From Halobellus limi (GTDB lineage Archaea; Halobacteriota; Halobacteria; Halobacteriales; Haloferacaceae): 64,000 nt of DNA. Shown here in pieces: positions 10,921 to 15,370 of this stretch; position 1 is the first letter of the stretch, and each line of letters starts with the position of its first letter. The notes under the pieces were generated by a model, which saw only the letters and a list, made by a program, of their open reading frames with translations, did no database searches and was not told where the DNA came from. Position numbers and translations under genes: made by a program. The stretch is from NCBI RefSeq assembly GCF_004799685.1, contig NZ_CP031311.1, positions 2,046,001 to 2,110,000 of the forward strand, read 5' to 3'.

Positions 10921-11409
10921 CTACGCCGCGCTCTCCGTCTTCGTGGGGGAGATCCAGACGACGAGTTCGTCTTCCCGTCGGACGATTCCCTCGATGAAGT
11001 CGCTGCGCTCCATCGGCGGGTCCTCGACGTCGTCCATCGAGACGCGGAGGACCTGATCGACCTCGTCGACGAGCCAGCCGATCGCGGCCTCGTCCTCGAA
11101 CTGTTTCGCGTCGAAAATCACGATACGGCTGGCCTCGCCGGTTTCGCCGACGTTCAAAAGCGTCTTCGGGTTGACGATCGACGTGGTTCGTCCGCGGAGG
11201 TCCATCACGCCCTCGACGAACTCGGGGGCGTTCGGAACCGACGTGAGCGATCCGCGATCGACGATTTCGGAGACGTAGTCGATGTCGACGCAGTACGTCT
11301 CGCCCCCGAGCTCGAATTCGAGCACCTGCATCTGGCGGGCGGTGGCGTCGCCGTCGTCTGTCGCGGCGGGGTCGGACGCGCCCGCCGCCACGGGTTGTTC
11401 CTGTGACAT
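10921..11409 (-). CDS. cheW: Chemotaxis coupling protein CheW
   Basis: A 162-residue CheW. About 35 low-complexity residues precede the SH3-like double barrel (QVLEFELGGETYCVDIDYVSEI through VWISPTK). CheW links transducer (methyl-accepting) proteins to the CheA kinase. The conserved VDRGSLTSVPNAPEFVEGVMDLRG stretch is the interaction surface for CheA and receptors. ATG 11409 was chosen over the upstream in-frame codon at 11442 because it begins the typical Ser/Gln-rich start. The gene diverges from the cheB-cheA-cheR-cheF run. The 147-base gap has a TATA-like box in each direction: ATTTATT on the complement near 11474-11480, and CTTAAG at 11523-11528. Confidence 0.95.
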   Translation of the reverse strand: MSQEQPVAAGASDPAATDDGDATARQMQVLEFELGGETYCVDIDYVSEIVDRGSLTSVPNAPEFVEGVMDLRGRTTSIVNPKTLLNVGETGEASRIVIFDAKQFEDEAAIGWLVDEVDQVLRVSMDDVEDPPMERSDFIEGIVRREDELVVWISPTKTESAA

Positions 11410-11556
11410 AGTGGCGTCGCCGGCGACCCCGACGAGGGTCACCGGTTGCTACGTCGTGCTGGCGGCGAGACCGGCAATAAATGTACGCACGCTATTATCA
11501 CGGCTGATTCTCGCCGGCGAGCGCTTAAGTCCCCCAGTCAGGAAGCGTCGATAGAG

Positions 11557-11625
11557 ATGAGCGGGTACGAACACGCCGTCGATCGGTGGGGCGACGGCGA
11601 CGAAGACGGGAGCGGCGGGCGATGA
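11557..11625 (+). CDS. 22-codon micro-ORF coupled to cheB
   Basis: ATG 11557 opens a 22-residue frame (MSGYEHAVDRWGDGDEDG and four more residues) whose stop codon overlaps the cheB start as ATGA (11622-11625). A TATA-like CTTAAG at 11523-11528 puts the expected transcription start close to this ATG, so it would be the first frame on the messenger. The peptide is acidic after an amphipathic start and matches nothing I know. It may be a real microprotein, a translational-coupling leader for cheB, or chance; sequence alone cannot decide. Confidence 0.45.
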   Translation: MSGYEHAVDRWGDGDEDGSGGR

Positions 11626-12851
11626 GTGCGGCCTCTGAACCGGGCGGCGGCGGCGATCGAACGCGGGCGGTCATCGTCGACGATTCGCGGTTCATGCGGA
11701 CGCTCATCCGGAGTCTGCTCGAAGAGGGCGGTATCGAGGTCGTCGGCGAGGCGAAAGACGGGTCGGCCGCACTCGAGACCGTGCGCGAACACGACCCCGA
11801 CGTCGTGACGATGGACATCGAGATGCCGACGATGAACGGCCTCGAAGCCGTCGACGCGATCATGGACGGCCACCCGACCCCCGTGCTGATGCTCTCGGCG
11901 CACGCCGAGGAGGACGCCGACGTGACGTTCGAGGCCCTGGATCGGGGCGCGGTCGACTTCGTGACCAAGCCCGGCGGCGAGGTCACCTCGTCGATGCCGC
12001 GCGTCAAGAAGGAACTCGTCGAGAAGGTCGAATCCGCCGCCCGGGTGGACCTCTCGGCGAACGCTCGGGCGGCGACGCGTGAGCGGCGCGGTGACGCGGG
12101 CGGCGCGGGAGCATCCGGGGCGACTGTGGGATCCGAGGCCGGCAGTTCGGCGACGAACGCCGCGAGCGAGACGCGGCCGTCGTCGACCGGGCAGTCCGGG
12201 ACGACGGACCGCCCGGCGCCCGACACCGGGGCGGCGTCGACGGCGGAGGCCGACTCCGGGCGAACCTACCCGGACGTCGGAACCCTCGTCGTGGGCGCGT
12301 CGACCGGCGGACCGAACGTCGTCGAGCGCGTCCTCGCCGGGCTTCCCCGAGCGGCGAACCTCCGCGTCCTGGTCGTCCAGCACATGCCCGAGGGCTTCAC
12401 CTCGCGGTTCGCCACGCGACTCGACGAACGGTCGGCGTACGCCGTCCGCGAGGCCAAGTCGGGCGAGCGGATCGAGGCCGGAGAGGCCCGGGTCGCCCCG
12501 GGGGGCACCCACCTCCTCGCCACGGGCGACCGGAGCGGTCGACTGAAACTCGAACTGACCGACACCGAACCGATCCACGGCGTCCGCCCGGCGATCGATC
12601 TCACGATGGCGTCGGCCGTCGAGACCGTCTCCGACTCGCTGTGCGGGATCCTGCTCACCGGGATGGGTCGCGACGGCGTCGACGGGATGGAGCGCATCGA
12701 CCGCGGCGGCGGTCACACCATCGCCCAGGACGAGGCGACGTCGGCGATCTTCGGGATGCCGCGTCGGGCGATCGAGACGGGCTGCGTCGACGTCGTCGCG
12801 CCCGCCGAAGAGATCGCCGAGAACGCACTGCGGTACTTCGCGGAGGAGTGA
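11622..12851 (+). CDS. cheB: Chemotaxis response regulator/protein-glutamate methylesterase CheB
   Basis: A 409-residue two-domain CheB. The receiver domain (about residues 15-130) has the acidic pocket VIVDDSRFM and phospho-acceptor Asp65 in TMDIEMPT, then the conserved Lys in FVTKPGG. A Ser/Ala/Gly-rich linker of about 90 residues follows. The C-terminal esterase contains the catalytic Ser in GASTGGPN, the His in QHMPEGF and the Asp in TGMGRDGVDGM. CheB removes methyl groups from transducers when phosphorylated by CheA, giving adaptation. Its ATG overlaps the stop of the 22-codon ORF and its stop lies three bases before cheA, so the run is one operon. Confidence 0.96.
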   Translation: MSAASEPGGGGDRTRAVIVDDSRFMRTLIRSLLEEGGIEVVGEAKDGSAALETVREHDPDVVTMDIEMPTMNGLEAVDAIMDGHPTPVLMLSAHAEEDADVTFEALDRGAVDFVTKPGGEVTSSMPRVKKELVEKVESAARVDLSANARAATRERRGDAGGAGASGATVGSEAGSSATNAASETRPSSTGQSGTTDRPAPDTGAASTAEADSGRTYPDVGTLVVGASTGGPNVVERVLAGLPRAANLRVLVVQHMPEGFTSRFATRLDERSAYAVREAKSGERIEAGEARVAPGGTHLLATGDRSGRLKLELTDTEPIHGVRPAIDLTMASAVETVSDSLCGILLTGMGRDGVDGMERIDRGGGHTIAQDEATSAIFGMPRRAIETGCVDVVAPAEEIAENALRYFAEE

Positions 12852-12854
12852 CAG

Positions 12855-15370
12855 ATGGACGACGAACTCTACCAGGAATTCATCACCGAGTCCGAAGAGA
12901 GCATCACGCAGTTGAACAACTCGCTTCTGGACCTGGAGTCGAACCCGGAGAACACGGAAGCGATCGACGACATCTTCCGACAGGCCCACACGCTGAAGGG
13001 GAACTTCGGCGCGATGGGGTTCGACAACGCCGCGAAGGTCGCCCACTCCGTCGAGGATCTGCTCGACGCGGTCCGGAACGGGGAGATCGAGGTCACCCAC
13101 GAGCGGATGGACCTCGTCTTCGACGGGATGGACGAGATCCTCGACATCCTCCACGAGATCGAGGCCGAGGGGGAGTCACAGCGGGATCCGAGCGACCTCG
13201 TCGAGGAGATCCGCGCGGCCGCATCACCGGACGCGGAGGCCGGTGCCGACGCGGACGGCGGGGGGAGGCCGACGCGGAGAATGCGGCGGCCGGAGCGGAC
13301 GCAAACGCCGACGGTGAGGCGCTCGACCTCGCCGCCGACGTGCTCGACCTCGACGACCCGGAAGTCGCGGACGCGGACGAGCTCTTCCACGCGAGGATCG
13401 AACTCGACGCGGGCGATATGAAGGGCGTCGACGCGGGGCTCTTCGTCGGCGGTCTCCCGGACGACCTCGCGGTGGTCGGGGCCGAGCCGGCCGTAGAAGA
13501 GATCGAGGAGGGCGAGTTCGACGAGGACTTCGTCGTCTTCGTCGCGGACGTCCCCGAACTGGAACTCGAACCGCTCCTCGAAGACCTCTGGAAGGTCGAG
13601 TCGGTGACGCTGACGGACGTCTCCTCGCTCGTCGAGAGCGGACCCACCGGCGAGCGCGGGACGGGTGAGCCCGAAACGACGGCGGAAACAACGACCGACG
13701 CGAGCGAGGGTTCGGGAGCCGAAGACCCCGAAGCGACGACCGGCGACGTCGACGCCGATTCCGCTGCGGCCGCGGTCGACGCGGTCGTCGACGCCTACAC
13801 CTCCGGCGGCGCGTCGACCGGCGGCACGGACGCAGGTGGCAGCGACACCGAAGCCGTCGGAACCGACCCCGATACCGACGTCGCAGAGAGCGGTTCAGGC
13901 GACGACAGTGAGGCGGCTCCGAGCGTCGGAGATGACGCTGAGGAGGTGAGCAGCGACACCAGCGACGGCCAGCGGTCCGGTGGTCGTGACGAGCGACCGG
14001 ACTCCGGCGGCAGCGACGGAAGCGGGAATGCCGACAGCGACGGAAGCGGAAATGCCGACAGCGACGGAAGCGGAAATGCCGACAGCGACGAGAAGAAGCG
14101 TTCCAACGGTGACGACGCGGACGACGACAGCAGCACGGACGAGACGCCGTCGATCTCGGAGGTGAAGTCCGTCCGGGTCGACGTCGACCAACTGGACGAA
14201 CTCCACAGCCTCGTCGAACAGCTGGTCACGAGCCGGATCAAGCTCCGGCAGGCGGTCGGCGAGGACGAGACCGCGGGGAGAGACACCCTCGACGAACTCG
14301 ACAAGATCTCCTCGAACCTCCAAGACACGGTGATGGACATGCGGCTGATCCCGCTGAAGAAGGTGTTCGACAAGTTCCCGCGGCTAGTCCGCGACCTCGC
14401 CCGAGAGGAGGAAAAGCGAGTCAGCTTCTCCGTCGAGGGCCAGGACATCGAACTCGACCGGACGATCCTCGACGAGATCTCCGACCCGCTGATGCACGTG
14501 CTCAGAAACGCCGTCGACCACGGCATCGAACCGCCCGAAGAGCGGGCGGCCGCCGGCAAGTCCAAGACCGGGTCGGTCGAGTTGCGCGCCGAGCGCGAAC
14601 ACGACACGGTCGTCATCACCGTCGAGGACGACGGGGCCGGCATCGACGCCGACGTGATCAGAGAGAAGGCCGCCGAGAAGGGGATCCGCCCGCGCGAGGA
14701 GCTGGCTGAGCTGCCCGACGAGGAGATCTACGAGTACATCTTCCACCCCGGCTTCTCGACCAACGAGGAGATCACCGACGTCAGCGGGCGCGGCGTCGGG
14801 ATGGACGTCGTCAAGACGACGGTCGAGTCTCTCGACGGGTCGGTGAACGTCGACAGCACGCTGGGGGAGGGAACCGAGATCTCGATCCGGCTCCCCGTGT
14901 CGGTCGCGATCATCAAGGTGCTGTTCGTCCAGATCGGCGGCCGGGAGTTCGGCGTCCCGATCAAGTACATCGACGAGATCTCCCAGCAGACGCGGATCCA
15001 GCGGGTCGACGGCGCCGAAGTGATCGTCCACGAGGAGAAGATCTTCCCGCTGATCCGACTTCGCGAAGCGCTCGAACTCGGCTCCGCGCGCGCCGATTCG
15101 GGGATGATCGTCCGAGTCCGACCCGCGGACCGACAGGTCGCACTCCGCTGCGACGGCGTCTCGCGACAGGAGGAGGTCGTCGTCACGCCGTTGCAGGGGC
15201 CGCTCCGAGGGACCGACGGGCTCTCGGGGACCGCCGTCGTCGGCGACGGCAACGTCGTCCCGATCCTGGACGTCAACTCCCTGCCGATCCCCGACGAGGG
15301 CAAACAGGCGCGTCGGCAGTGGGCGCCGCCGGAGGACGACGGTTCCGAGGCCGAGGGGGCCGCCGACTGA
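12855..15370 (+). CDS. cheA: Chemotaxis histidine kinase CheA, frame broken by one base at 13260-13265
   Basis: ATG 12855 opens a CheA whose HPt domain has the phosphorylated His45 in QAHTLKGNFGAMGF. The frame is lost in a run of six G at 13260-13265 within an Ala/Asp/Gly linker. A seventh G restores about 838 residues. Downstream, in the other frame, come a P2-like response-regulator-binding region, a long acidic linker with three tandem 8-residue repeats, the dimerisation helices, the ATPase with HVLRNAVDHGIEPP (N box) and GRGVGMDVVKTTVESL (G boxes), and a CheW-like C-terminal domain. CheA passes phosphate to CheY and CheB. All catalytic motifs are intact, so the break is probably a sequence error. 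Confidence 0.92.
14015..14086 (+). repeat. Tandem 24-bp repeat (three copies) in the cheA linker
   Basis: Three adjacent units of GACGGAAGCGGAAATGCCGA plus CAGC (14015-14038, 14039-14062, 14063-14086); the first has one change. They encode Asp-Gly-Ser-Gly-Asn-Ala-Asp-Ser three times in the linker before the dimerisation domain. Copy number probably varies between strains. Confidence 0.9.

Follow-up and report, generated by a model that had tools for sequence, protein, structure and literature searches.

Translational coupling between overlapping, co-directed genes has been described in Haloferax volcanii, where overlaps of 4 nt are the commonest (354 gene pairs), overlaps of 8 nt come to 62 pairs and longer ones are rare (Huber 2023, PMC10666635), and 13 of the 14 overlapping pairs tested from H. 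volcanii and Escherichia coli were strictly coupled (Huber 2019, PMC6728339). According to the latter work, the Shine-Dalgarno (SD) motif is not functional in de novo initiation in haloarchaea and helps coupling in H. volcanii to varying degrees, without being essential. The adjacent chemotaxis genes of E. coli are likewise translationally coupled (PMC2716512), and short upstream open reading frames (uORFs) acting as ribosome loaders have already been proposed in general, with a mycobacterial interspersed element as the natural example (PMC12548453). Short uORFs of 15-31 aa in front of ordinary genes are also listed from H. volcanii, in which 72% of the protein-coding transcripts are leaderless (Babski 2016, PMC4983044); the list is confined to 5'-UTRs of 150-250 nt, includes no chemotaxis gene and does not state overlap with the next gene as a criterion. 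All comparisons with published systems made here refer to the accessible parts of the respective publications.

The locus considered here lies in the window, the whole 64,000-nt stretch of Halobellus limi DNA that was analysed, and consists of a mini-ORF ending on the start of the chemotaxis methylesterase gene cheB (Table 1). Together with its relatives in other genomes, it resembles the H. volcanii pairs in its co-directed 4-nt (commonest) and 8-nt overlaps and in the SD-like sequence within the upstream ORF, a likeness that would lead one to expect the downstream gene to depend strictly on the upstream one (PMC6728339, PMC10666635). Whereas the pairs named for H. volcanii consist of protein genes, the upstream ORF here has 13-56 codons and no conserved sequence, and stands at the head of an operon. 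Similarly, the coupled neighbours in E. coli are protein-coding (PMC2716512), whereas no protein gene lies 5' of cheB here and the coupling device stands alone. The proposed role, delivery of ribosomes only, is that of PMC12548453; unlike the mycobacterial example, the cheB uORF is archaeal, predicted to be leaderless, present in 17 genera and situated at the place of cheY. No published report of a cheB uORF was found in the literature searched by title and abstract, nor do the accessible parts of PMC12482152, PMC12542753 and PMC3579733 contain anything on it. What looks new is the wide and strict retention of the ORF without a conserved peptide, and its position at the place of a relative's gene.

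Table 1 Features of the cheW-cheB region, in coordinates of the window
Feature	Position	Strand	Remarks
cheW	10921-11409	-	Divergent, same intergenic region as cheB; Pfam
Palindrome TTATCACGGCTGAT	11495-11508		Divergent cheW-cheB promoter; candidate operator
TATA-like box CTTAAG	11524-11529	+	First base 33 nt before mini-ORF ATG
Mini-ORF (uORF)	11557-11625	+	22 codons; predicted leaderless; stop overlaps cheB start by 4 nt
Purine-rich, SD-like stretch	11608-11619	+	5' of cheB start; only moderate in the window's genus
cheB, chemotaxis methylesterase	11622-12851	+	Receiver and CheB domains
cheA, first part	12855-13421	+	188 codons; frame-shifted in this sequence; 3 nt 3' of cheB

The mini-ORF encodes the peptide MSGYEHAVDRWGDGDEDGSGGR, and its TGA (11623-11625) overlaps the cheB ATG (11622-11624), confirming the 22-codon frame and the overlap that an earlier note on this DNA had described. 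The downstream product (P0001) is CheB by its Pfam matches (CheB_methylest 1.9e-58; Response_reg 7.3e-27). Since the uORF frame remains open 5' of the ATG as far as a TTG at 11446, the uORF start rests on the ATG, and the position of this ATG relative to CTTAAG is near that expected for a leaderless start. In a scan of the window, for which 50 genes were called roughly and a loose rule treated 44 of them as heads, no head gene other than cheB had an ATG mini-ORF at TATA spacing that ends on the start of the gene. Because 22-codon frames are often open by chance in G+C-rich DNA, a single copy would prove little, and it is the comparison across the family that carries the proof. Downstream in the same operon, the cheA frame shifts near a run of six G (approximately 13260-13265), so that the 188 codons are followed by a stop, and cheA measures 739-911 codons in five relatives (L037, L038, L039, L042 and L048); the shift may be real or may reflect an error of sequencing.

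A family search recovered cheB at E ≤ 1e-30 in 132 of 170 genomes, and the cheB loci of 92 of these 132 were examined (12 from the window's genus and 80 others), the other 40 of the 132 belonging, by subtraction, to g21. By E-value and identity, the best of the named relatives were Halobellus rufus and H. salinus. At 80 of the 92 loci, representing 17 of the 20 cheB-bearing genera, the space between promoter and cheB holds a short ORF that starts with ATG. Every one of the 80 overlaps the cheB start as we took it, by 4 nt in 65 cases, 8 nt in 12 and 14 nt in three, and these last would count as the least typical cases, given how rare longer overlaps are in H. volcanii. For 86 loci the uORF ATG was defined as the first ATG 50-70 nt past the palindrome of the promoter, and it was placed by hand at L146 (where the rule was corrected), L161, L163, L164, L171 and L172. 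As the cheB start we used whichever in-frame start lies closest to the stop of the uORF, a rule that can favour overlap elsewhere than at the 39 of the 80 loci where only one cheB start is possible, 6-60 nt from the receiver motif. At seven of 85 palindrome loci a nearer ATG occurs 43-44 nt past the palindrome, about 20 nt from the TATA-like box, which we judged too close for the transcript. One locus (L154, g28) was excluded from the uORF count because cheY directly precedes cheB there.

The promoter-proximal ATG is that of cheB itself, in frame, at 11 of the remaining 91 loci (one in g3 and ten in g21), so the uORF is not indispensable. At the g21 loci (L186-L195) and at L171, where this ATG is in frame with cheB, cheB itself thus appears to be leaderless, and a frame change could turn the uORF into an N-terminal extension of cheB and back. 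As a separate observation, five of 17 genomes of the window's genus (G011 and G013-G016) gave no cheB match at E ≤ 1e-30; the chemotaxis operon may have been lost from them, two of the five genomes being 68-72% complete.

A spacing of 30-35 nt between TATA box and ATG is expected where the transcript starts at or close to the ATG. Of 91 loci, 88 have a TATA-like hexamer, from a list made after viewing the sequences, at this distance 5' of the promoter-proximal ATG. All 80 uORFs start with ATG, and the cheB genes behind them start with ATG in 46 cases and with GTG in 34. Before the cheB start, at the end of the uORF, pairing with what we take to be the anti-SD letters of the 16S tail averages -10.4 kcal/mol, compared with -4.6 kcal/mol in shuffled sequences, and falls below -8.4 kcal/mol at 54 of the 80 loci. 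Strong SD-like pairing is seen in g4, g6, g7, g14, g20, g23, g24 and g26; the mean for the window's genus, -8.8, is moderate, and the value for g16, -5.8, is weak. The comparison of the region upstream of cheB in relatives, which the earlier note had suggested, thus found start, frame and overlapping stop retained at 80 of 92 loci, with an SD-like sequence before cheB, and the part of that note which read the frame, at the operon's head, as translationally coupled to cheB is supported.

We examined 32 cheB loci outside the family (L196-L222 and L043-L047; at most 31 are distinct, L045 and L211 being one stretch), a set that leaves aside order matches lacking loci (f9, f14, f15 and f16 among them) as well as L223-L224, which belong to g21. 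At 22 of the 32, cheY lies directly 5' of cheB and overlaps it by 4 nt. These 22 come from six of the nine other haloarchaeal families that contributed loci (f6, f7, f8, f10, f12 and f17; named representatives are Halorussus and Natronorubrum), and one locus in f11 has cheY before cheB with a 7-nt gap. A short ORF that is not cheY precedes cheB at six loci (L043, L044, L196, L215, L216 and L219), overlapping it by 4 to 14 nt except at L196, where the two are separated by one base; neither cheY nor a clear short ORF was seen at L046, L220 and L221, L220 being without a uORF. Annotated plasmid copies amounted to five records, all bacterial. The spread of the cheY-cheB order over families, rather than a tree, leads us to infer that it is the older one. 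In the window's genome approximately 220 kb separate cheY from cheB, and the ORF that follows cheY is taken for cheC; in H. volcanii cheY is likewise found in another cluster (PMC2841640). A palindrome similar to that of the cheW-cheB promoter also stands 53 nt ahead of the ATG of this genome's cheY, and the strict palindrome stands 62-68 nt before cheY in 10 of the 24 loci with cheY ahead of cheB. These spacings are not identical to those of the uORF (54-67 nt), and several cheY-cheB loci have a wider gap between the TATA box and the cheY ATG than separates the box from the uORF ATG. As far as these sequences go, then, the uORF occupies the position of cheY elsewhere and follows the same kind of promoter.

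The observed architecture, the conservation of frame and overlap, the absence of measurable constraint on the peptide and the cheY arrangement elsewhere argue for a reading that we consider probable, namely that the uORF is a cis-acting ribosome-loading ORF which, in the place of cheY, converts leaderless initiation into termination-reinitiation on cheB. The cheB operon transcript would begin on the ATG at 11557, or no more than a few bases from it, and ribosomes would enter by leaderless initiation on the uORF AUG, translate 22 codons, terminate at the TGA within the cheB start and reinitiate on cheB. Selection would act on the AUG at the 5' end, the open frame and the stop at the cheB start, and not on the peptide. 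After cheY had left, the short ORF would have taken over, or been left, as the ribosome donor, if the direction of change was the one suggested above. More tentatively, at a little under even chances, the uORF may be a ghost-gene ORF, a leaderless and sequence-indifferent donor that succeeded cheY and is selected for AUG, frame and stop only; it perhaps stands for a general, overlooked class at the heads of archaeal operons that no longer contain a coupled gene. Frames are usually judged real by the conservation of their protein, and here the evidence points to a frame that is kept in 17 genera while the protein drifts, so that the usual screens for small proteins would discard the uORF. The locus also offers, in the genetically tractable Haloferax, a test case for ribosome loading on genes that are possibly poor leaderless starters, as the GTG-initiated cheB genes may be, and for the fate of a coupled gene whose partner sits elsewhere.

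The uORF might alternatively belong to an attenuator or riboswitch-like leader, in which its translation senses something and thereby sets the expression of the cheB operon, much like the regulatory leader peptide that the earlier note had entertained. Its position between promoter and operon would suit such a role and leaves room for regulated use. RNA folding over the uORF is ordinary, however, with a mean z of 0.11 over 34 genus-and-length classes and one class below -2, on which ground a structured leader was rejected, and no shared peptide or codon run was found among the uORFs, whose peptides were compared by eye. We therefore regard an attenuator-type leader as unlikely.

The same note had also offered an uncharacterised chemotaxis microprotein, and a peptide with a function of its own, as a microprotein or a regulator, encoded where the operon begins, could explain why peptide starts of the form M(S/R/C)G(Y/H/C)(E/D) recur at 11 of the 12 loci of the window's genus and MSG(Q/L/E)RN at all 15 g9 loci. 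We measured pN/pS in six equal-length sets from five genera (g1, g6, g9, g18 and g20), 12 genera having too few sequences of equal length, and found no purifying selection on the peptide in any of the six, with values of 1.30 in g1 (22 codons), 1.57 and 1.44 in g18, 0.85 in g9, and 4.27 in g20 and 2.88 in g6, these last two sets being only 13-14 codons long. The corresponding values for cheB in the same genomes, over 60 receiver codons, are 0.12-0.24, and the uORF stretches read in the two shifted frames give 0.35-1.07. Only in g9 does the uORF frame (0.85) lie below its shifted frames (1.03 and 1.07), a slight lean towards constraint that would favour a peptide function; in the other sets it is no lower than they are. 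Nevertheless, third codon positions of the uORFs are no more variable than the others, and the peptides differ in sequence between genera (again by eye) and in length from 13 to 56 codons. Composition points the same way, as lysine and arginine make up 17.6% and aspartate and glutamate 7.5% of the 80 uORF peptides, compared with 6.6% and 22.1% in the CheB starts, and acidic residues outnumber basic ones in only eight of the 80, although the window's own peptide is among these eight. On pN/pS and composition the microprotein was rejected and we consider it highly unlikely, so that the microprotein half of the earlier reading is not supported.

No more probable, in our estimate, is that the frame is a chance opening in an ordinary 5' untranslated region and that cheB has an initiation site of its own. 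Short frames being so often open in this G+C-rich DNA, the single genome would fit such a view, as would the SD-like sequence 5' of cheB, except that the SD motif is reported as non-functional for de novo initiation in haloarchaea (PMC6728339). The family comparison led us to reject it. Counting one locus for each of the 34 classes, we found no stop in 1058 codons of the uORF frame versus 12 and 16 in 1024 codons each of the other two frames, and 16.7 in-frame stops would be expected from Markov shuffles of the same classes; by this measure the uORF frame is under selection. The overlap is also maintained where lengths change within a genus, as in g1, with uORFs of 18, 22, 53, 54, 55 and 56 codons, and where the distance from palindrome to ATG shifts by 1 or 2 nt, as it does within g1, g9, g18 and g26. 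Moreover, at the 15 loci in seven genera where the uORF is in the other frame relative to cheB (overlaps of 8 or 14 nt), its stop is supplied by early cheB codons, in 14 of the 15 through a CGT followed by A or G, although CGT accounts for 6.3% of the arginine codons in the cheB frames of these loci. Least credible of all is a functionless relic, decaying from cheY or from a former N-terminal extension of cheB. Such an origin would suit the position in cheY's place and the in-frame promoter-proximal ATG of g21, but a relic should have gathered stops and lost its frame, as none of the 80 uORFs has, and no similarity of the uORFs to cheY was seen by eye.

The reading of the uORF as a ribosome-loading ORF leaves the palindrome of the promoter to be considered in its own right. 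The pattern TTATCANNNNTGAT has six exact matches in the genome and its reversed control none; besides the site in the window (11495-11508), these lie at 2278728, 2280053, 1988939 and 2332942 of G000:C1 and at 42210 of C3. Within the family, a looser form of the pattern with an ATG 50-70 nt further on was found at 86 of 92 loci, one of which (L146) was misplaced. Since it is found both between cheW and cheB, in their divergent promoter, and ahead of cheY, the palindrome is a candidate operator, which may be recognised by a regulator of chemotaxis or motility. Of the other sites, that at 1988939 (L225) has on one side, 140 nt away, the beginning of a 319-codon ORF with a signal-like, Cys-containing start, and the site at 2332942 (L229) lies 75 nt from the start of an ORF with 479 codons or more.
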